Of a stretch of 64,000 nucleotides of DNA, positions 46,119 to 55,565 are shown piece by piece. Made by a program: the position numbers and the translations under genes. A model generated the notes under the pieces. That model ran no database searches. It had not been told where the DNA came from and was given only the letters and a program-made list of their open reading frames with translations. The DNA is taken from NCBI GenBank assembly GCA_938075675.1, contig CALJHE010000021.1, positions 1 to 64,000 of the forward strand, read 5' to 3'. The DNA is from Candidatus Poseidoniaceae archaeon. Lineage in GTDB: Archaea; Thermoplasmatota; Poseidoniia; Poseidoniales; Poseidoniaceae. Every line of letters starts with the position of its first letter. Within the stretch, counting starts at the first letter, position 1.

Positions 46119-46793
46119 ATGAACAGGGCGTGGATGTACATCGGGACCATCGCCCTTGGGCTTTGGTTTTCTGCTACATCGTGCAACGGTCTGTTGGCCG
46201 ATGAATACGCTGAATGGCCCGTGAATATTTGGTGTTGGGGCTTGTTTGCTTGGTACTACCGTTCTGGTGAACGGAAGCAGCGTATCGAAATGCTGACGGT
46301 CGTAGCTTTCGCCACACCAATGGAACTCTTCTTCAGCGAAGTGTGGCTTATCTACGAATATCAACGAGATCTGATGCCGTTATTCGTTCCTGCCGGTCAT
46401 TACTTTTTGTTCGACCTTGGAAGGATTTGTGCGGACAAAATCAAAGAGAATTGGGCACTACCAATGCTTCTCCCCCTCGTTCCAGTTGTCTTCTACGGAG
46501 CATGGACCGGCGGAGATACTTCTGCTGTACTACTTCTCGTATTTGTTCTCATCTTCATCCGTTTGGGCCCTCAGCCTCGATTGTATGCCGCAATGGTATG
46601 GGCAGCGTTGGCAATGGAAATCGTCGGGACGTCTCTCGGAAACTGGACATGGGCAAGTGAAGTGCCATGGACGGGCCTTACTGCCTGGAATCCACCTCTG
46701 TTGGTGGGTTCATTCTACTGTTTAGGTGATGTATTGGTTAATTTGGCAGTCGTCAAGTTTGAAGGGAAGGACCGATTGGAGGTTCATGCATGA
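46119..46793 (+). CDS. Multi-pass membrane protein, unknown function
   Basis: About seven hydrophobic segments in 224 residues, Trp-rich, with few charged loops. Two acidic residues lie inside membrane segments (the TPMELFFSEVW region), a feature of transporters or membrane enzymes, but no family is recognised. The start is uncertain: GTG 46074 overlaps gshA, while ATG 46119 has AAGAGGAG about 16 nt ahead. Its end overlaps the ferredoxin start by 4 nt, so it is an operon member. Confidence 0.7.
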   Translation: MNRAWMYIGTIALGLWFSATSCNGLLADEYAEWPVNIWCWGLFAWYYRSGERKQRIEMLTVVAFATPMELFFSEVWLIYEYQRDLMPLFVPAGHYFLFDLGRICADKIKENWALPMLLPLVPVVFYGAWTGGDTSAVLLLVFVLIFIRLGPQPRLYAAMVWAALAMEIVGTSLGNWTWASEVPWTGLTAWNPPLLVGSFYCLGDVLVNLAVVKFEGKDRLEVHA

Positions 46794-47122
46794 CTTCATC
46801 CGATGAGTTGCGAAAGCGCCGTGAGCAAGAGGCGATTCGTATACGAACTTCTCTGAATCGTCTACGGGGCGAACAGCGTGCATCCATCAAAGGGGGAGAA
46901 TCGACAGTAGCCTTTGTCGAAGAACGTCTTTGCATCGGGTGTGACCAATGCACAATCGTTTGTGATGACGATGCTATTGAGATGTACAAGGTGGCAATGG
47001 CAAGCCCACTTATTCAAGTCGAATCGAATCAAAAAGCGAAAATTTTGCGTGATGATTGCACAGGATGTCGACTCTGTGTGTTGGCTTGTCCAACAGACGC
47101 AATCACAATGATAGACAGATGA
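46790..47122 (+). CDS. Ferredoxin with two 4Fe-4S motifs
   Basis: A 110-residue ferredoxin. After a basic, helical N-terminal extension (residues 1-40), two clusters are bound by CIGCDQCTIVCDDDAI and CTGCRLCVLACPTDAI. The first motif has Asp in place of the usual Pro after its fourth Cys. The extension suggests docking to a partner protein. GGAGG precedes the ATG, which overlaps the membrane-protein gene. Being in the asnB-gshA operon, it may deliver electrons to a thiol or membrane enzyme (inference). Confidence 0.88.
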   Translation: MTSSDELRKRREQEAIRIRTSLNRLRGEQRASIKGGESTVAFVEERLCIGCDQCTIVCDDDAIEMYKVAMASPLIQVESNQKAKILRDDCTGCRLCVLACPTDAITMIDR

Positions 47123-47131
47123 GGTGTTTGA

Positions 47132-47422
47132 ATGTCCAAGAATGATAAACAAGATACTGCCCAACGGTTTGGTGGAGAATTTGGTCCTTACCGCAAGGAA
47201 GGGACACCTGGCGTTTCCCTTTCAACTTTCAAGACGCTGGTTTGGACCTCGAACATTGGTGGAATGCTGCTTGTGGTCATTGCGCTTGAAATGCTCTTTG
47301 TGCGACAAATGTTTGGTTGGGGTCTTGCTTCTCTCATTCTCGGGGTTTTGATTGCACTGTTCCCATCGAACTATGAAATCACAGGGATGGACGAGGGCCA
47401 GTCGCCACCATCAGGCGATTAA
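47132..47422 (+). CDS. Small two-helix membrane protein, 96 aa
   Basis: Two adjacent hydrophobic helices (about 44-58 and 62-76) after a polar N-terminal 40 residues with a GGEFGPYRKEG motif, and a short acidic C-terminus. GAGGTG stands before the ATG at 47132, 9 nt after the ferredoxin stop. It closes the operon and abuts the stop of the convergent gene at 47423. No family recognised. Confidence 0.7.
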   Translation: MSKNDKQDTAQRFGGEFGPYRKEGTPGVSLSTFKTLVWTSNIGGMLLVVIALEMLFVRQMFGWGLASLILGVLIALFPSNYEITGMDEGQSPPSGD

Positions 47423-48187
47423 CTATACTCGCATTTCGTTCTGGCACGATGGACATTGTATCTTGCCAGAGTATCCCGCAGGGACCTGAAGTGATGCGCT
47501 GCAATGTGTGCATTGAATCTTGTCTTTGTCGGAAGTCGTGTTTGAATCGAGTCCGAAGGCGCGCTCGATATTTGCCGGCCATCCCGGTTTGAGCTGTGAC
47601 ATGAAAATCGGAAGAGCAACAAGTGCCATGCAAATGAATGAACACATAATGGATGTTAGAATCATTTCTTCCCCCCACGCTACAGACACTGGATTCGGAT
47701 CGTCGCCGTGGAAAAGTACGCTCATCATTCCAGATACAACCAATACACCCAATGTGAAGTAAACACCGTTGCGGTATCCAGCGTAAAGTATGGCTCCACC
47801 AACGAGGAAACCAATTCCAAGAAGGAACGCGGGAATAGAAAGAAGCCAAGAACTTGCGCTGCCTCCAATTCCAATGGAGAATACCATGGCCCAAAACAAC
47901 CTGAAGAAGGCGTAGAGGATGACAAATCCGCCAATGGTCTTGGACATCTCCTCTTTTTGGTTCACTCGGATGTATTGGGGCTGTACATAGCCACCCATCG
48001 GTTGCGCTGGATGCATTTGCATAGGCATAGGTTGTGGAGCAGGTGCAGCATATGTCTGGAAGATATTTGATGCTTCGTCGTTCTCCATCAATCGGATGAT
48101 GACTTCATCTTTGTTTCCGGAAACCCGGAGTCCACGTTCTCTACAGAGTGTTTTCAATTGAACGACGGTCATTCCGCTGTAGTCCAT
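47423..48187 (-). CDS. SAP-domain membrane protein with C-terminal zinc ribbon
   Basis: 254 residues in three parts. Residues 1-40 form a SAP-like helix-turn-helix (VVQLKTLCRERGLRVSGNKD), a motif that often binds nucleic acid. A Pro/Met/Gln-rich linker follows, then four or five membrane helices (about 85-195), and a C-terminal zinc ribbon with CTHC and CPSC. The SAP/zinc-ribbon membrane layout is common in this group of archaea in my memory, but its function is unknown. It ends against the convergent operon with no spacing. Confidence 0.65.
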   Translation of the reverse strand: MDYSGMTVVQLKTLCRERGLRVSGNKDEVIIRLMENDEASNIFQTYAAPAPQPMPMQMHPAQPMGGYVQPQYIRVNQKEEMSKTIGGFVILYAFFRLFWAMVFSIGIGGSASSWLLSIPAFLLGIGFLVGGAILYAGYRNGVYFTLGVLVVSGMMSVLFHGDDPNPVSVAWGEEMILTSIMCSFICMALVALPIFMSQLKPGWPANIERAFGLDSNTTSDKDKIQCTHCSASLQVPAGYSGKIQCPSCQNEMRV

Positions 48188-48237: not shown

Positions 48238-51066
48238 TTAAGCTTCGACTTCTGTGATTGTGATCACTTCTGTAGCAGCCTTTGCTTTCTTTGCTTCGAC
48301 TTGCCGTGCGAGGAAGGATACAACATCGAGAATTTCAATGTCTTCGTAACGTTCGTCACCCTCAAACTTGAGACATTCAAAGTGAGATACACACTTCGGG
48401 CAGGAAGTAAGCATGGTGTCAGCTCCAGTTGCTCGGATTTCTTCCATGCGAGTTACACGCAGTGAACGAGCATTCTCGTTGCATGACATCATACTGGATA
48501 CACCGCAACACATTGCGTCTTCACCGTGGTGTTCCATCTCAACGATTTCTACACCCTCAACACCGGCAATGAGCTCACGAGGTTCTTCGTAGATTCCCAT
48601 TTGTCGTCCGAGTCGGCACGGGTCGTGGTAGGTCACCGTGGTTTCTTCCTCAGCCTTGAGGTTCATGTCAAATCCGTTTTCGATGAGGAACTCAGTCGTG
48701 TGCATGACTTTGACACCTTCAAGTTCGTAGTCTCGAGCGAAGGTTCGGAAACATTCAGCACAAGAAGAGACGAGAGTGTCAATTCCAGACTGTTCAATCT
48801 TCTTTTGATTGTAGGCCTTGAGTTTCTCAAAGACTTCATCGAGGCCTTGCCACTTTTGATCGTGACCACAGCACTTGAGGAAGTCACGGCCAAGGTAGGA
48901 TACATCCATCTCCATCTCATCAAAGAGCGTGAATGCAGATGTAGTCGCATCGCCAAGGTTCATTTCTCCCTCGTTGACATGTGAGAACACCATTTCTTGG
49001 TCAAGGTAATCCACACAGCCAGGGTAGTAACCGATGTTCGAGGTGAGTGGGTAATCTTTGACAGCGACGAAGTCTTCGTCTGCTGCTTCTTCTGCTTCGG
49101 CAGCAAGAACAGCTTGGAGGACAGTGTGAGCAATTTCTGCTTGTGGTCCACCGACAATGAGTGAGCGACGAATATCGACGTAAGAGTCGTAATTGACCAG
49201 TTGTGGGCAAGCATTGGTACATGCAGTACAGGTTAAACACGAATAGAGAGGAACACCATCATCTTCATTGTTCCATGAGTTGTAGATGATGTTGAGTTTG
49301 TCTCCACCGTTAAACAAACGGACAGGGCATGCATCATCACAAAGGTCACAGCCGTAGCACTTGTTCATCTCAAACTCATATCCTCTACCCATCGAGCGCA
49401 AGACGACGAAGACGATTGCTCCGAAGGTCAAACATGGAATGAACATAGCGTAGGTAAGTTTGGCGTCAAGGGCCTTAGGGTTGGTGTGGTAGGTTGGGTT
49501 TTCAATGGCTGCAAAGCTTGTTCCACCTGCTGCCATGTCTGTCGAACTGGAGAGGTTCACAGTCGTTCCTGCAAGTGCAGCTGGCGCACCTTCTCCCCAA
49601 ACAAGAAGCGGCTGGAAGGTTGCGATTTCGAAGGCAGTCTCTGTTTGGATACTGTTGTTAAGAGCCAGAGCGCCGCTTACTGTGACGGTGTATTCGTAGG
49701 AATAGGTGCCAACTGGTAGTTCTACAGTTGCTCCAGCACAGTTGTCAAAAGTTGAAACGACTTTGCCTTTATTATCGGTCACGGTCAATGTAGTTGCGAT
49801 CATCGATGCTGTAGAGATGTCGTTAATCTTACGCTCTGAAGAACGGTACTCACAGGCGAGGTCTGTCGTAAGCGTCTCGATGGATTCGTGGTGACCGTCA
49901 GGGAAGAGGGATGTGTCTTCGGTTACAGTGAATGTTCCGGTATCGCTCCATCCGTCTCCACCGTTGAAGGTCGTACTGCCAGCAGCAGCATTGATGCCGT
50001 TTGCAGCGTCTTGATGACCGTTTGCATCGTTGAAGTCAATGATGATGTAACGAGCAGGTTGGTAAATCATCCAATCGAGCCAAGCGGTAGTCGGAACTAT
50101 TTCTGTATCACTCCATCCACGTTCGTCGGTAAATTCGTTGGTTGCGTGAACATGAACATCTGTTGGCTGCGTGCGCATTGCCTCAAGTTCAGGGTAGTAG
50201 TCGTGCGTGAGACCCTTAATGGTAAGCAAACCGCCTTGGTCCCAGAATCCATCGTCGTAGGTGTCCCATGTTGCCACAGTTCCTGCTGTTGAAATCAACA
50301 AAGTGCCAATAAGGATTTGCTTGGCATGGCTTGGCTTGAAACCAGCACCCCATGCTTTAACCATCATTCCACGAGCGAGGAAATAGAAACATATCCATAC
50401 TAATACTCCAGTCATTACCCAAGGAATCGTGTTGAAGGCTTCTGCCACCCATGGTTCACGAACACCACACAAGAGGTCGCCGTGACTGTCAAGTTTACAG
50501 TAATCTGAACGGTTCTTTTCATACAGTTCCAAGAAGATATTAATCGAGAACACAGATATGAACCAAATGTGTGCGAGGTAGACTGCACCTGCTGTAGCGA
50601 ACCACGGGTCTTCCACTGGTCGCTTTTCACGTCCGCCGAGGAAAGGTGGTAGTGCGAGGATACTTACTGGGATTCCGGTAAGTGCAGCGCCCCACCATGC
50701 AGCGTTCCAAGGGAACACAGGTTGGCCGACGATTTCACCGATGAATCCCGTTGGGACTGTAAATTGTGGCAAGTATTCTCCCCATCGCAGGTATCCGTAA
50801 GAGAACAACACATACCAATCAGGGAAAACGAAACCAGCTTGAGCATATGGATCTGCTGCACCGTGCAATGGTGGTGGAATCAACCAGGCATAGAACAACA
50901 ATACTGCTGCCATGAACGACAGAAGAATCGTGTCGCGCAGAACTTCATGAGGCCAGAAGCCGTGCCCTGTTCGAGTGCGAGTACGTTTTCCAGCAACCTC
51001 TTGCAATTGTTCTTTCTCCTCCATGTATGAAGAAGCAACACGTCCGAAATTTTCGATTAGTCCCAT
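48238..51066 (-). CDS. Cytochrome b C-terminal half fused to HdrD/GlpC-like Fe-S module
   Basis: A 942-residue fusion. Residues about 42-270 hold the cytochrome b C-terminal (subunit IV-like) membrane part with a quinol-site PDWY at 82-85 and roughly five helices. A 250-residue hydrophilic loop follows, then one more helix (about 528-553). Next come two 4Fe-4S motifs (CYGCDLCDDACP, CLTCTACTNACP; about 568-640) and two CCG domains of the heterodisulfide-reductase type: the first with KCCGHD and SSCAEC, the second with MCCGVSS and SCPKC. GGAGG precedes the ATG. It is the last gene of the Rieske/cytochrome b operon. The known parts argue for a quinol-linked enzyme with a cytoplasmic electron outlet or inlet. 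Confidence 0.88.
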   Translation of the reverse strand: MGLIENFGRVASSYMEEKEQLQEVAGKRTRTRTGHGFWPHEVLRDTILLSFMAAVLLFYAWLIPPPLHGAADPYAQAGFVFPDWYVLFSYGYLRWGEYLPQFTVPTGFIGEIVGQPVFPWNAAWWGAALTGIPVSILALPPFLGGREKRPVEDPWFATAGAVYLAHIWFISVFSINIFLELYEKNRSDYCKLDSHGDLLCGVREPWVAEAFNTIPWVMTGVLVWICFYFLARGMMVKAWGAGFKPSHAKQILIGTLLISTAGTVATWDTYDDGFWDQGGLLTIKGLTHDYYPELEAMRTQPTDVHVHATNEFTDERGWSDTEIVPTTAWLDWMIYQPARYIIIDFNDANGHQDAANGINAAAGSTTFNGGDGWSDTGTFTVTEDTSLFPDGHHESIETLTTDLACEYRSSERKINDISTASMIATTLTVTDNKGKVVSTFDNCAGATVELPVGTYSYEYTVTVSGALALNNSIQTETAFEIATFQPLLVWGEGAPAALAGTTVNLSSSTDMAAGGTSFAAIENPTYHTNPKALDAKLTYAMFIPCLTFGAIVFVVLRSMGRGYEFEMNKCYGCDLCDDACPVRLFNGGDKLNIIYNSWNNEDDGVPLYSCLTCTACTNACPQLVNYDSYVDIRRSLIVGGPQAEIAHTVLQAVLAAEAEEAADEDFVAVKDYPLTSNIGYYPGCVDYLDQEMVFSHVNEGEMNLGDATTSAFTLFDEMEMDVSYLGRDFLKCCGHDQKWQGLDEVFEKLKAYNQKKIEQSGIDTLVSSCAECFRTFARDYELEGVKVMHTTEFLIENGFDMNLKAEEETTVTYHDPCRLGRQMGIYEEPRELIAGVEGVEIVEMEHHGEDAMCCGVSSMMSCNENARSLRVTRMEEIRATGADTMLTSCPKCVSHFECLKFEGDERYEDIEILDVVSFLARQVEAKKAKAATEVITITEVEA

Positions 51067-51083: not shown

Positions 51084-51950
51084 TCAATGTGGTTCTGCAA
51101 TGCCTTGTACCCAGACAATGAATAAGTGAATAATAATCAGAGTTGTAACGATGACTGGCAGAATGAAAACGTGAATAAAGTACATTCGAGTGACGGTACG
51201 TGAGGTCAAAGAGGAACCACTGAACAGCAGGGTTGCGATGTACTTTCCAACCAGTGGGCTCGAGTTCGCCAAGTTGATTCCGATAACTGCCGCACCGTAT
51301 GCAAGCGTATCCCAAGGTAGGAGGTAACCGGAGTAACCAAACACGATGGTCAGAGCCATGAGTGCAACGCCGATTAACCAGTTGAGTTCACGAGGGTTGC
51401 GGTATGCGCCGGTGAAGTAGACGCGGCACATGTGCAGGAACACACTGGCAACCATGAAGTGCGTACACCAGTGGTGGACAGCACGGATAATGTAACCGAA
51501 CGGAAGTTCGGTCATGATGAATTGCATGCTTGCATAGGCAGGTGATGGGTCTCCTTCTCCGCCAGGGACGTAGTAGATGCCGAGCACTGTCCCGGTGACG
51601 ACCAAAATGATGAACGATAGGAATGAAATTCCGCCCAAGCAATAGAGAGGATACCAGTACCAAATGATACGGAGTTTGTATTTTTCAGCGTGTGAGAGTG
51701 GCATTTGGCGGTGCATGTTGTAGTATGCGCCTTTGGACATGTTCCAATAGTCCTGGAGTCGGAAGCGAGTGTCGAGCCATGAAAATACCCAAAGGAACAG
51801 ACGTTCTGCAAAGCCCATTTTGCCGGTTGACTCTACTGCACGTAGAATCTCACGGCGTGGTGTGTCGCTGCTTTCTTGACGAAGCGTCAAAGCAACAAGC
51901 ACCACAACAAAGGCGATGAAAAACCAGAGAACCCAAAACATTGTTGTCAT
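51084..51950 (-). CDS. petB: Cytochrome b N-terminal half (b6 type)
   Basis: The haem-binding subunit of a cytochrome bc/b6f-like quinol oxidase complex. It is 288 residues and closely follows chloroplast cytochrome b6. The haem ligand pairs are H159/H173 and H260/H275, with the b6 spacings of 14 and 15 residues. YCLGGI carries C104, equivalent to the cysteine that binds the extra haem ci/cn in b6f. SGYLLPWD is also conserved. An added N-terminal helix (residues 5-23) precedes the b6 core. GAGGTG precedes the ATG. The C-terminal half is encoded separately by the next gene, as in b6f complexes. Confidence 0.94.
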   Translation of the reverse strand: MTTMFWVLWFFIAFVVVLVALTLRQESSDTPRREILRAVESTGKMGFAERLFLWVFSWLDTRFRLQDYWNMSKGAYYNMHRQMPLSHAEKYKLRIIWYWYPLYCLGGISFLSFIILVVTGTVLGIYYVPGGEGDPSPAYASMQFIMTELPFGYIIRAVHHWCTHFMVASVFLHMCRVYFTGAYRNPRELNWLIGVALMALTIVFGYSGYLLPWDTLAYGAAVIGINLANSSPLVGKYIATLLFSGSSLTSRTVTRMYFIHVFILPVIVTTLIIIHLFIVWVQGIAEPH

Positions 51951-51961
51951 TTATGTTCACC

Positions 51962-52807
51962 TCAGTCACAGTATGTGTACCAGTCGAGATAGTCTACGAT
52001 GCCCTCGATTACATCGCCGTTCAATACAACGGGGATTATGGGGAGTCCAACTGGGGCAGGGCCTCCAGCTTTTCGAATTCCCGCATACTTGAATGTGGAA
52101 CCGTTTGACCGGTTTCGGTTGGTGTTCATTTCCAAAACAGTTGGATCAAACCGTGAAGAGTGACATATGCAGAAGAGTTTGGTCCCACCGTCGTCTCCAC
52201 CGCCAGGCGTCCAAGAGTCTTCAGTAAATGAGTTTGAAACAAGTTGCCATCCAGGAATGCAACAAAGGTGCGTACATCGGCCGAAAATCATCACTAAGTT
52301 GTCAGATGGAAGAAGTCGAGGGTCTGCATCGCTCAAGTCTTCAAAGTGGCCGATGGTTTTTCCGGTTTCATCGACTCCTTCGGTAAATTGGAAACGGGCC
52401 TTGCCGTTTGAGGTTGGAGAGGCAGCGTATTCGCTGTGAGTAACATAGGTGACCACGACAGGTACACCGTTCCAAATTCCAGAAGCGCCCGATGTGCCGG
52501 TGTTGGATTTCGCAGCTTCATCAACAAAATCTTGTCTTGTCATCAGTTGTTCGTGCTTTGCACCGTACCAAGCCTCGTCCTCACGCCCCTTTGCCCAGAA
52601 CTTTACGCCAAGCTCACCTTCGCTGCTGCCTCCAGGTGGGAGCAAAATTGATGCAAATCCGAGGACACCGAGTGATGCAGCCAAAACGCCAGTGGCAGTA
52701 TTGAATCCATAGCGGAGAAATTGGCGTCGATTAATCGACGAGGAGATTGATGCGACACCTGCTTCGCCTGCAGACGGTGCTGGTTTGAGGTCGTATTCAC
52801 GTGCCAT
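51962..52807 (-). CDS. petC: Rieske iron-sulfur protein
   Basis: Takes the first electron from quinol in the cytochrome b complex. A Tat-type twin-arginine (NRRQFLRYG, about 26-34) precedes a single helix, which anchors the protein to the membrane. The 2Fe-2S ligands lie in CTHLCCIPGW and CICHSSRFDP. The first box has Cys where most have Gly (CTHLGC), and the second has Ser where most have Gly (CHGS), changes that may tune the potential. It is 281 residues, longer than usual, with an insertion before the cluster domain. A ribosome-binding GGTGAT precedes it. Confidence 0.93.
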   Translation of the reverse strand: MAREYDLKPAPSAGEAGVASISSSINRRQFLRYGFNTATGVLAASLGVLGFASILLPPGGSSEGELGVKFWAKGREDEAWYGAKHEQLMTRQDFVDEAAKSNTGTSGASGIWNGVPVVVTYVTHSEYAASPTSNGKARFQFTEGVDETGKTIGHFEDLSDADPRLLPSDNLVMIFGRCTHLCCIPGWQLVSNSFTEDSWTPGGGDDGGTKLFCICHSSRFDPTVLEMNTNRNRSNGSTFKYAGIRKAGGPAPVGLPIIPVVLNGDVIEGIVDYLDWYTYCD

Positions 52808-52813
52808 TTTAGA

Positions 52814-53260
52814 TCACCACTTGTATTCCTTCCAGTCTTTCTGGTGTTCCGGAACGAACTTGTTCATTCCGTGCTTGACAATGATGGTGTCAGGCAAAAC
52901 GAATTTGAGGTAAGCCATACCCATCAAGCAGAGCGTGACGAGCATCATGGCGACGTGGTAGGCAAGTTGCTGTTGATCCCAGCCCTTGGCGAGTCCGTAA
53001 ATCATAGAGAACACCCAGAAGCAAGACCAGAAGATACCCCATACGAAGAAAGCCATAATGAGGTTTGAGCCACCTGATGGAGCAAGAGATGCACTGACAA
53101 TAGTGCCGGATTCTGCAAGATTGAAAACGCCGTGGTCAATCGCAGATTGCATTTGGTCTTCGGTAAGAGATGCATCTTCCAATGCGGTTCGTGCGTCTTC
53201 CACGCTGACTTTTCCACTGGCGACCTTGCGAAGTAGGGTCGTGATTGTATCGTCCATCAT
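52814..53260 (-). CDS. Small membrane subunit of the cytochrome b operon
   Basis: 148 residues. A helical soluble N-terminus (1-60), then two membrane helices (about 67-90 and 102-125), and a basic C-terminal tail (HGMNKFVPEHQKDWKEYKW). No known family. It lies 6 nt before the Rieske gene and overlaps the upstream gene by 4 nt, so it is probably an accessory or structural subunit of the same complex. Confidence 0.72.
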   Translation of the reverse strand: MMDDTITTLLRKVASGKVSVEDARTALEDASLTEDQMQSAIDHGVFNLAESGTIVSASLAPSGGSNLIMAFFVWGIFWSCFWVFSMIYGLAKGWDQQQLAYHVAMMLVTLCLMGMAYLKFVLPDTIIVKHGMNKFVPEHQKDWKEYKW

Positions 53261-54096
53261 TGGTCACCTCTTCGCATGAGTTTGTATCGTAATCGGAGTT
53301 GATTGGTTCGTCCAGAGTAAGATGTGGAGAAACTGTATCGCAGCATGAATCCGGCGAAAATAATCACGAGAATAACTGCGCCAAATCCGAGTAGACCGAG
53401 CCAGTGTGCTCGAAGTTCAGCACCCATGTGTTCGAGGTCCACGCCGCTGTGTGCTGGCTCTGGAGGACTGACGTTTCCATCACCGGCAAAGAGTGTTCGA
53501 GTGCCAAGCGCTGTTGTAGAATCGCTCCCCTCTTGGAGGGTGAAGAGCAATTGATTCCACTTGTCTTCTTGGCCGCCTGCGTTGTTGAGTTGGTCGCCGT
53601 TCACGGCGTTCCCAGTAATCCAAAAGTTGACGACTCCAGAGTCGGATGCAGGTGCTTGCCATGTGATTGTCCAAAGCCGTTCTGGCTCATCTGCAGTTGC
53701 TTCTGTGTGGGTAAGTGTGGTGACGTCTTCGTCCCAATTTTGAACTCCTTCTCCTCCAAGAACGCCGTCCGTTGTGCGAATTGCGAATCCTGCGGTGTAG
53801 ACGCCTGATGCCGGTGGTCCTCCGATTATTTGGAGCGTCATGGTGTATGTTTCTCCACCAATCCATCCGTAGGGGACATCGTCGAGGATGATTTGAACAG
53901 AGTTGTCGGCTGCTTCGTTGTGGCAAAGACAACCTTCCTTCGCAACATCGTCGATGGTTTCTCCAGCATTGTCTTGAGCACCTCCTACGCCGCTGTGAAG
54001 CGAAGTCGCAAAGCCCGGGACGAGCAGTAAAATCGCTAGCGCGAGCACTACTCCGGAACGTGTGGAAAATGAGTTCCTTAGCATAGCCTCACCCAT
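53257..54096 (-). CDS. Exported choice-of-anchor-V/Reelin-like protein with a CxCH motif
   Basis: 279 residues: a signal peptide (VVLALAILLLVPGFATS), an external beta domain of the choice-of-anchor-V type (GGETYTMTLQI and GFAIRT are family-like), a helix near 232-255 and a basic cytoplasmic tail. In many relatives the segment before the first strand carries a CxxCH haem-c motif; here it reads EGCLCHNE, that is CxCH. It is the first gene of the respiratory operon, where a cytochrome c partner would be expected, and none is otherwise seen. A TATA box 26-30 nt ahead supports a leaderless start at 54096. Confidence 0.7.
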   Translation of the reverse strand: MGEAMLRNSFSTRSGVVLALAILLLVPGFATSLHSGVGGAQDNAGETIDDVAKEGCLCHNEAADNSVQIILDDVPYGWIGGETYTMTLQIIGGPPASGVYTAGFAIRTTDGVLGGEGVQNWDEDVTTLTHTEATADEPERLWTITWQAPASDSGVVNFWITGNAVNGDQLNNAGGQEDKWNQLLFTLQEGSDSTTALGTRTLFAGDGNVSPPEPAHSGVDLEHMGAELRAHWLGLLGFGAVILVIIFAGFMLRYSFSTSYSGRTNQLRLRYKLMRRGDQ

Positions 54097-54647: not shown

Positions 54648-55565
54648 ATGGAAGCCTCTCACATCCTCATTGCTGGTGTGGGCGGACTTGGCTGTTCGTG
54701 GGCCAAAGGTGCTCACCTTCGTTGCGAAGGAAATGCCGACCTCTGTTTGGTCGATGCGGATGATGCGAGTTTTACCGACAGTGGCTCTGCACATCTTCTT
54801 CGGCTTGGCCATGCCCTTGATTCGGTCGGTTGTGCGGCACTCCCCCCGCTGGCTGAACAAAGGATGCGGGGTTACTCTTCTCTAGCCCGAACGGTACTCG
54901 AACCTGTCGAGTTGGTCTTGCTGTTGACTGGACTAGGTGGCGGAACAGGCACGGGTGCTGCCCATGAATTTGCTCGCCAAGCACGGCAATCCGGGGCAAT
55001 TGTAGTTGCCGTTGCCGCTCTTCCGTTTGATGTCCAAGAAACACGTGCCGAAATCGCTCAGGAAGGTCTTCAGCGGCTTGAGAAAATTGCTCATGTGACC
55101 GTTCGCCTGTCTTTGGAGCGTCTTGCACGGCAAGCGCGAGAGCGAGGAAAAGCGTGGCAAATGGGAGCCGAATGGGTTGAAGACTTGGTGGAAGGATTGG
55201 TTCGAACATTGATGCGTATGGGACTCATCAATCTGGACCTCATGGATTTGCGGGCCATCGTCGAAAAAGAAGGCGAGGCTACACTTCTGGTCGGTACCGG
55301 TCGACCTGACGACCCGGAGGGCATCTTGCAATCTGCTCTTATGGCACCACTGGCTGAACTGGATGTGGGTGGTGCTCAGGGCTGCTTGATTCAAGTTGAA
55401 GGTGGTATTGGTATGACGATTGGTCAAGTCGATGAAGTTGCAAACATGTTTACTGAGGCACTGGACCCGAATGCTCAGGTCATTTTGGGAGCTCGAGTCA
55501 GCGAAGATCTTGAAGATACTATCCGAGTCGTAACTTTGCTCTCAGGCATCAGTAGTGATGCTTAG
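54648..55565 (+). CDS. Divergent FtsZ/tubulin-superfamily GTPase
   Basis: 305 residues. The tubulin signature is intact (LTGLGGGTGTGAAHEFA, about 90-106), followed by the family-like VAALPFDVQETRAEIAQEG. The T1 loop is altered (VGGLGCSW for the usual VGGGGNN). The synergy (T7) loop reads GLINLDLMD, keeping aspartates that could trigger GTP hydrolysis. Compared with FtsZ it is short and has no C-terminal tail for SepF or FtsA binding. It is neither typical FtsZ1 nor FtsZ2. Cell division or shape is the natural guess, but the role is open. Its stop overlaps the convergent gene's stop. Confidence 0.78.
   Translation: MEASHILIAGVGGLGCSWAKGAHLRCEGNADLCLVDADDASFTDSGSAHLLRLGHALDSVGCAALPPLAEQRMRGYSSLARTVLEPVELVLLLTGLGGGTGTGAAHEFARQARQSGAIVVAVAALPFDVQETRAEIAQEGLQRLEKIAHVTVRLSLERLARQARERGKAWQMGAEWVEDLVEGLVRTLMRMGLINLDLMDLRAIVEKEGEATLLVGTGRPDDPEGILQSALMAPLAELDVGGAQGCLIQVEGGIGMTIGQVDEVANMFTEALDPNAQVILGARVSEDLEDTIRVVTLLSGISSDA

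Follow-up and report, generated by a model that had tools for sequence, protein, structure and literature searches.

Can one archaeal gene encode both the C-terminal half of a cytochrome b and an iron-sulfur module of the heterodisulfide reductase type, and what might such a protein do in a respiratory chain? The question is raised by a 64,000-nucleotide stretch of DNA from a Candidatus Poseidoniaceae archaeon (contig CALJHE010000021.1), analysed as a whole and called the window here, in which positions 48238..51066 on the (-) strand hold a single, intact ATG frame of 942 codons, the PetD-HdrD fusion gene. The frame runs from a PetD-type part (the cytochrome b C-terminal half) with a PDWY motif through extra helices, an external beta-domain and a last helix to two 4Fe-4S motifs and two CCG motifs, which together form an HdrC/HdrB-like (HdrD-like) module. 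The initial annotation had described one frame joining a PetD part, an external loop, a helix, two 4Fe-4S motifs and two CCG domains, and the frame, its motifs and the profile comparisons bear this out. The gap between petB and the fusion is 17 nt, and a GGAGG-type ribosome site precedes the fusion ATG; sigma-70 and terminator scans at the locus performed no better than chance.

Integrity and distribution of the fusion gene

The fusion query matched 59 of 59 near genomes and 145 of 145 genomes of a further set, counts that include fragments and an EtfD-like paralogue. Single frames of at least 900 codons were found in 49 of the 59 near genomes, the window's own genome counted: 41 were listed without a stop, and eight of nine stop-flagged ones proved open on re-reading. 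The ninth (G030) carries a broken copy whose longest frame is 537 codons. Seven genomes of this set hold fragments (G034, G018, G031, G039, G040, G042 and G009), and G011 and G014 gave a weak or paralogous match and nothing more. In a collection of named records, 79 loci were kept from 368 relatives. These comprise 52 full fusions, 18 loci with a petD-4Fe4S gene and a separate CCG gene, one petD-4Fe4S gene without CCG at the locus, six with petD alone (L148 among them, on a truncated contig), one truncated locus and one broken locus. petB adjoins the fusion in 50 of the 52 full-fusion loci, and the remaining two start at a contig end; the fusion is conserved beside petB and the Rieske gene, the arrangement that the initial annotation had proposed to look for.

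The ratio of non-synonymous to synonymous change (pN/pS) across six orthologues lay between 0.03 and 0.58, with synonymous sites near saturation in this comparison. Synonymous change exceeded non-synonymous change in all four segments of the fusion, and the external domain was the loosest of the four. An assembly or sequencing error that joined two genes would be consistent with the two separate genes of Marine Group III and with the broken copies in G030 and L165. Such an error is ruled out as the origin of the fusion by the single frames in 49 of 59 genomes and 52 of 79 named loci, which come from many assemblies, and by selection along the whole frame; the probability that we leave to it is negligible. 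Relatives with two separate genes, which the initial annotation would have counted against the fusion if this frame were an error, do exist in Marine Group III; the frame is not an error.

The full fusion is carried by the window families f1 and f2 and by loci named Poseidoniales, Thalassarchaeaceae or Marine Group II; loci named Marine Group III have the split form, petD-4Fe4S with a separate CCG gene. Besides Poseidoniales, two other Thermoplasmatota families have the full fusion. The versions in L137 (G187) and L118/L119 (G195/G200) are shorter full fusions that have no external domain. Judged by sequence, the relatives can be placed in a series that begins with petD alone and passes through petD-4Fe4S, first without and then with a separate CCG gene, to the full fusion. 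A PetB tree of 32 rows, with three label changes, nine open forks and long branches, does not decide between a single and a repeated origin of the fusion. In a phylum-wide search at 1e-10, 286 of 389 genomes matched, many of them by CCG domains alone. petB was matched in 18 of 80 chosen genomes outside the class, three of which (G187, G195 and G200) could be read as having the full fusion. Matches were also obtained in 67 records of a plasmid collection, none covering more than 80% of the fusion protein. Several of the loci kept from the named collection stand under bacterial names; these records are probably mislabelled bins.

Membrane part, external domain and iron-sulfur module

The PetD-like membrane part (residues 34-240; 50347..50967, (-)) was recognised by its likeness, at the profile level, to cytochrome b of bc1 and subunit IV of b6f. 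PF00032 (cytochrome b C-terminal) gave no match to the window protein at 0.1, and for this reason the homology was established through relatives and a profile. PF00032 does match two relatives, fusions of two other families (7.8e-10 and 1.4e-4). Among solved proteins, a profile built from eight relatives picks up the C-terminal halves of bc1 cytochrome b (to 1.5e-8) and subunit IV of b6f (5.6e-6). Of 78 PetD parts, 77 have the motif PDWY (residues 82-85; 50812..50823, (-)), which we take to be a PEWY-type quinol-oxidation motif; the exception, L153, is a frame that begins where its contig does.

An AlphaFold2 (AF2) model predicts six helices in the fusion, at residues 40-62, 122-138, 154-182, 206-239, 245-271 and 532-559. 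The first four belong to the PetD-like part, where the model has low confidence, and helix 206-239 is an extra one beyond helix G. In Poseidoniales, the insertion between helices G and H consists of a helix pair and a beta-domain. This external beta-sandwich domain, delimited by AF2 and Foldseek (residues ~272-530; 49477..50253, (-)), has a predicted local distance difference test score (pLDDT) of ~80-91 over residues 351-490 except 381-400, and resembles GOLD domains (Foldseek, E 4.6e-4). At about the same position, between helices G and H, an unfused PetD (L223:5994-7733) carries a LamG-like domain (PF13385, 7.2e-14).

Hydropathy and AF2 place the last membrane helix, H, at residues 532-559 (49390..49473, (-)), running from outside to inside. 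Known PetD proteins have their N-terminus inside. If this holds for the fusion, PDWY and the beta-domain would lie outside and the iron-sulfur module inside; the cytoplasmic location proposed in the initial annotation is supported by this helix parity, with the same proviso. Unfused PetD ends ..YEFNLNRTYYKVR, and the fused PetD reads ..YEFKLNRCYQCGLC there; the tails of unfused PetD proteins resemble ..GYEFNLNRTYYKVR. It follows from this comparison of the unfused tails with the fused stretch that the module starts at the inner (cytoplasmic) end of helix H.

The module has the features of HdrD or HdrCB, namely two 4Fe-4S motifs and two five-cysteine CCG motifs. The HdrC-like 4Fe-4S motifs (residues 566-622; 49201..49371, (-); Pfam Fer4_8, 2.9e-7) have their cysteines at C570/573/576/580 and C610/613/616/620, and both motifs occur in 73 of 73 matched relatives. 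All five cysteines are present in CCG motif 1 (residues 680-772; 48751..49029, (-); C684/C732-C733/C769/C772) and in CCG motif 2 (residues 811-896; 48379..48636, (-); C817/C853-C854/C889/C892), and Pfam finds CCG (PF02754) twice (1.2e-22). Motif 1 reads CCGH in all 52 fused loci, and the motif 2 cysteines are invariant in an alignment of 34 sequences; Marine Group III has CSGH at motif 1, the reading of 14 of the 18 genuine separate CCG genes. The iron-sulfur half matches the folds of EtfD (1.9e-12), LutA (1.0e-9) and HdrB (1.4e-6) in Foldseek, and its nearest solved relative is EtfD (9ojn), which we take to be the enzyme linking electron-transfer flavoprotein (ETF) to menaquinone. The best sequence matches are TfrB, LdhH, GlpC, GlcF and kin, all below their respective cut-offs, and the fusion does not reach the curated equivalog cut-offs of DsrK (38 of 400 bits), TfrB (112 of 385) or HdrB (21.5 of 345). 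The same genome has a separate CCG paralogue (G000:C6:42481-43461), read as EtfD-like.

Carriers beside the fusion and the possible electron path

The strongest functional clue is the RnfB-like neighbour gene. In the window it encodes a 2[4Fe-4S] ferredoxin of 110 aa (46790..47122, (+); TIGR01944 4.2e-12, below cut-off at 46 of 68.7 bits), a likely electron-exchange subunit. Of the 52 single-frame loci, 49 have a gene for an RnfB-like 2[4Fe-4S] domain next to the fusion, L118 being counted through the ferredoxin part of its HdrA-like gene; in the other three, the DNA ends within the fusion or at most 305 bases after it. The Marine Group III version of the protein has an N-terminal carrier domain in 12 of 12 loci scanned (the 13th, L134, was outside the scan). 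In six of these (L122 (4850-5860), L125, L126, L129, L130 and L133) the domain is a flavodoxin (PF00258, 6e-20 to 7.5e-29), and in L121, L124, L127, L128, L132 and L101/L135 it is a dicluster, zinc-ferredoxin-like ferredoxin (NF041165, 3.8e-21 to 1.3e-16, below that model's cut-off). The occurrence of two interchangeable low-potential carriers at one position points to a partner of the ferredoxin or flavodoxin kind, with which the module probably exchanges electrons. The link to a cytoplasmic couple suggested in the initial annotation is thereby supported and sharpened.

The flavodoxin set includes CG-Epi1 and the ferredoxin set CG-Bathy1; as a guess, the split may reflect iron supply by depth. 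The RnfB-like protein of L095 (same gene as L137) has four 4Fe-4S stretches. In G200 (L098:757-2292, family f25), the gene overlapping the fusion's end encodes a shortened HdrA with FlpD joined to it (HdrA2 1.9e-37, far below cut-off; FlpD 1.4e-17, above cut-off), which hints at flavin chemistry beside complex III in that family.

PetB Cys104 (51639..51641, (-)) aligns with Cys35 of cytochrome b6, presumably the attachment site of haem ci/cn, so that the window protein shares this b6f-type feature. A cysteine stands here in every one of the 50 full fusions typed in the named collection, as against one of nine distinct typed unfused loci, L222; the unfused typing drops four duplicate contigs, L148 and L165, and L230/L142, L231, L234 and L236 are untyped. 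Among the 19 petD-4Fe4S loci, six have Cys and 13 have Ser, all 13 in Marine Group III, which rules out haem ci as a universal part of the electron path. Of the 18 loci whose CCG gene is separate (L120-L135, L140, L144), 13 combine PetB Ser with CSG, four Cys with CCG and one Cys with CSG. Serine thus replaces both the PetB haem ci cysteine and one cysteine of CCG motif 1 in the 13, and the rows being related, this co-occurrence may represent one or two events.

Gene content bears on the direction of electron flow. POR_N, of the 2-oxoacid:ferredoxin oxidoreductase family, is present in nine of nine genomes searched, and NuoF (PF01512) was not found in eight of the nine, the window's own included. 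Reduced ferredoxin is therefore expected, and complex I seems to have no NADH module; the NADH dehydrogenase of Marine Group II (MGII) has been termed canonical in the available text of one study (PMC6336850).

From the fusion, its conservation, motifs, operon and attached carrier domains, which are read in the sequence, we infer cofactors, membrane side, electron path and direction, and propose a Rieske/cytochrome b complex whose cytoplasmic module receives electrons from ferredoxin or flavodoxin and reduces quinone. We give this proposal about an even chance. The PetD C-terminus would continue, on the cytoplasmic side after helix H, into the HdrC- plus HdrB-like iron-sulfur module, to which the neighbouring 2[4Fe-4S] protein would pass low-potential electrons from ferredoxin (or flavodoxin). 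The clusters of the module would deliver them to the inner quinone site (through haem ci, where the cysteine is present, and haem bH), and quinone would be reduced there. Quinol would then be oxidised at the outer site, with one electron leaving through the Rieske protein for a carrier and oxidase outside and the other recrossing the membrane through the b haems, so that complex III would double as a ferredoxin:quinone oxidoreductase. The direction is probably from ferredoxin to quinone, because the POR_N/NuoF gene content fits it and the reaction is downhill.

Several observations weigh against this proposal. In its membrane part the fusion model is of low quality (mean pLDDT 62, predicted template modelling score (pTM) 0.39), too weak there to position the iron-sulfur module. 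Covalent haem ci appears neither indispensable nor specific, given Ser in 13 of 19 petD-4Fe4S loci and Cys in the unfused L222. The window lineage encodes its ferredoxin separately, in a convergent gene to which no carrier domain is attached, and G043 does have NuoF. Two complete CCG motifs, as in HdrB and HdrD, exceed what plain electron transfer should need, and a membrane glutaredoxin-like protein after petD in some unfused relatives hints at thiol chemistry.

These last two points lead to an enzyme in which noncubane CCG clusters would oxidise or reduce a dithiol or persulfide of the cytosol, with coupling to quinone like that of HdrDE or DsrMK and the small ferredoxin only as a relay. The conserved CCGH and motif 2 cysteines and the HdrB fold match speak for it, as do glutaredoxin-like proteins, which come directly after petD in six of the ten distinct unfused loci and at a distance of ~1 kb in one more. 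Against this, motif 1 of Marine Group III reads CSGH, no CCG homologue was found at the L136 locus next to petD-Fer4, and the partner domains are ferredoxin and flavodoxin (partners of the DsrC or CoM type were not searched for); we consider thiol or disulfide chemistry rather improbable. The module could also be fed by another cytosolic dehydrogenase, ETF as for EtfD or a glycolate, lactate or glycerol-phosphate enzyme, as its resemblance to TfrB, LdhH, GlpC, GlcF and EtfD would allow. This is very unlikely in our judgement: the genome has its own separate EtfD-like paralogue, and the mapped conserved neighbours encode ferredoxin-type proteins, although no search was aimed at dehydrogenase genes themselves.

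The same parts list would also serve the reverse flow, in which quinol oxidation at the outer site is bifurcated and the membrane potential drives the low-potential electron through the b haems and the module to ferredoxin or flavodoxin, the other passing via Rieske to oxygen. The Rieske/cytochrome b complexes of anammox, which carry a cytoplasmic NAD(P) module, have been proposed to work in this way, and in the available text their Rieske potentials fit (PMC12954380). The HdrA-FlpD-like gene beside the fusion in G200 agrees with it as well. Ferredoxin, at a potential ~300 mV lower than menaquinol, is however a harder target than NAD(P), and cells with ferredoxin-reducing POR_N enzymes need an outlet and not a source, which makes reverse flow unlikely. 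A broader idea, which we hold to be doubtful, is a third redox port: a quinone-cycle machine with a covalently attached, ferredoxin/flavodoxin-exchanging HdrCB module would be able to work in either direction (ferredoxin:quinone, or bifurcation of quinol electrons to oxygen and ferredoxin/flavodoxin under membrane potential) as the only complex III of a marine archaeal group that is abundant worldwide, with the carrier swapped in part of Marine Group III.

Operon context, related systems and significance

Upstream of the fusion, on the same strand, lie petB, the Rieske gene, a gene for a two-helix protein resembling DUF7318 and one for an anchored protein of the Reeler-like kind. petB (51084..51950, (-)) encodes a cytochrome b6-type N-terminal half (PF00033 5e-42; best solved match cytochrome b6, 6e-44), has one match only across the genome, and loose patterns of its two haem-ligand His pairs were found in 76 of 76 proteins. 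In L096:788-3613 and L095:12086-13975, petB bears N-terminal bacterial Ig-like (Big_5) repeats, and the L096 protein also has a GCH motif near its N-terminus. The Rieske iron-sulfur protein (51962..52807, (-)), with a twin-arginine-like N-terminus by eye, matched TIGR01416 (1.6e-10, 41 of 97 cut-off bits) and had no Pfam match at 0.1. Both of its Cys-His boxes (CTHLCC...CICH) are present, as they are by pattern in 67 of 71 proteins (misses: L136, L138, L147 and L165). The DUF7318-like protein (52814..53260, (-)) matched PF24002 at 0.0015, below cut-off, and its homologues did so at 4.3e-12 and 6.2e-19.

The Reeler-like external protein (p279; 53257..54096, (-); NF041895 5.7e-21) occupies the operon position of cytochrome c1/f. 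It has an N-terminal hydrophobic segment, a GC-x-CH motif and a C-terminal membrane anchor, and its AF2 model (pLDDT 84.5) is a beta-sandwich that matches Reeler folds (5.9e-5); p279 had no match among solved sequences. All 47 aligned proteins have C58 and H59, and GC-x-CH is found in 61 of 65; the L222 orthologue has CTSCH (CxxCH). That the CxCH site binds haem is a guess. The initial annotation had stated that the operon has no cytochrome c1: none is recognisable, nor any cytochrome f, yet the slot is filled by this GCxCH protein, and in L136 a true cytochrome c (PF00034 1.3e-12) takes that place.

On the other side, a SAP-domain gene (47423-48187) stands between the fusion and the ferredoxin gene, which is paired with a gene for a two-helix protein of 96 aa (47132..47422, (+)) that neighbourhood comparison places beside the ferredoxin in many relatives. 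Glutaredoxin-like (DUF836) proteins with membrane helices follow or lie near petD in unfused Thermoplasmatota relatives, identified by Pfam (PF05768) at L228:5725-6174 and L141:5714-6313 and by BLAST at L224:7338-7859, L226:5145-5579, L227:5878-6315, L230:5023-5481 and L225:4599-5072; the 96-aa protein may be their helix-only counterpart. Divergent from the operon, positions 54648-55565 encode a protein with an FtsZ/tubulin-like GGGTGTG motif (by eye), a gene found beside the operon in 11 of 11 f1/f2 loci and in none of nine other loci compared. The genome further contains two cupredoxins, one POR_N gene and two cytochrome c assembly genes of the PF01578 family, whose lengths suggest a CcmF-like and a CcmC-like protein; the CcmF-like one adjoins a plastocyanin-like cupredoxin gene (G000:C5:128132-130646).

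Viewed as a whole, the core is that of a Rieske/cytochrome b6-type complex with split cytochrome b: it shares PetB (the N-terminal half), a PetD half with the PEWY-type motif PDWY, a Rieske protein with both boxes, the haem-ligand pattern and the Cys35 equivalent with b6f-like complexes. It differs from them in the HdrD-like module, in the external domain between helices G and H and in an operon without a recognisable cytochrome f/c1. EtfD (9ojn), HdrD/HdrCB, DsrK and GlpC/TfrB share Fer4 and two CCG domains with the module. EtfD, HdrDE and DsrMK pair it with other membrane haem proteins and not with a Rieske/cytochrome b core; unlike in HdrDE and DsrMK, the membrane partner here is PetD itself. 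We know of no such ferredoxin or flavodoxin wiring in ordinary complex III.

The available text on anammox Kuenenia describes likewise a cytoplasmic iron-sulfur redox module on Rieske/cytochrome b complexes (Kuste4569-4574, Kustd1480-1485), there an NAD(P) oxidoreductase with p-side multihaem cytochromes c, as against the HdrCB-like module with ferredoxin or flavodoxin here (PMC12954380). In one Angelarchaeales genome, hdrD-like and rnfB-like genes lie by complex III, and entry of reduced ferredoxin into it has already been proposed, according to the available text (PMC9038741). The hdrD-like gene is described there as a neighbouring gene, in contrast to the fusion to PetD seen here; it may be the same fusion gene, annotated by its C-terminal half. 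The fusion is not described in the available parts of PMC6336850, PMC9038741, PMC9239135, PMC5244752, PMC12954380 and PMC13156606. Nor did the literature searched, whose scope left out most subscription journals and bioRxiv preprints, show the spread of the one-chain fusion, the point of fusion or the tethering to flavodoxin or ferredoxin. The suggestion of a new kind of complex III made in the initial annotation is thus not fully supported: the core is ordinary, and the anammox module and the Angelarchaeales proposal came before.

For MGII, cytochrome b and Rieske genes without a canonical bc1 complex, and RnfB without Rnf partners in many families, have been reported in the available text of PMC6336850; the fusion offers an explanation for both loose ends, the non-canonical complex III and the partnerless RnfB. 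Through it, electrons from ferredoxin gain an entry to the respiratory chain of abundant, uncultured archaea of the ocean, in which complex I apparently has no NADH module. If ferredoxin does enter at the inner quinone site, the fusion would be the genetically fixed equivalent of an input of ferredoxin that is debated for plant b6f, and the mechanism of that input would become testable in a simple complex.

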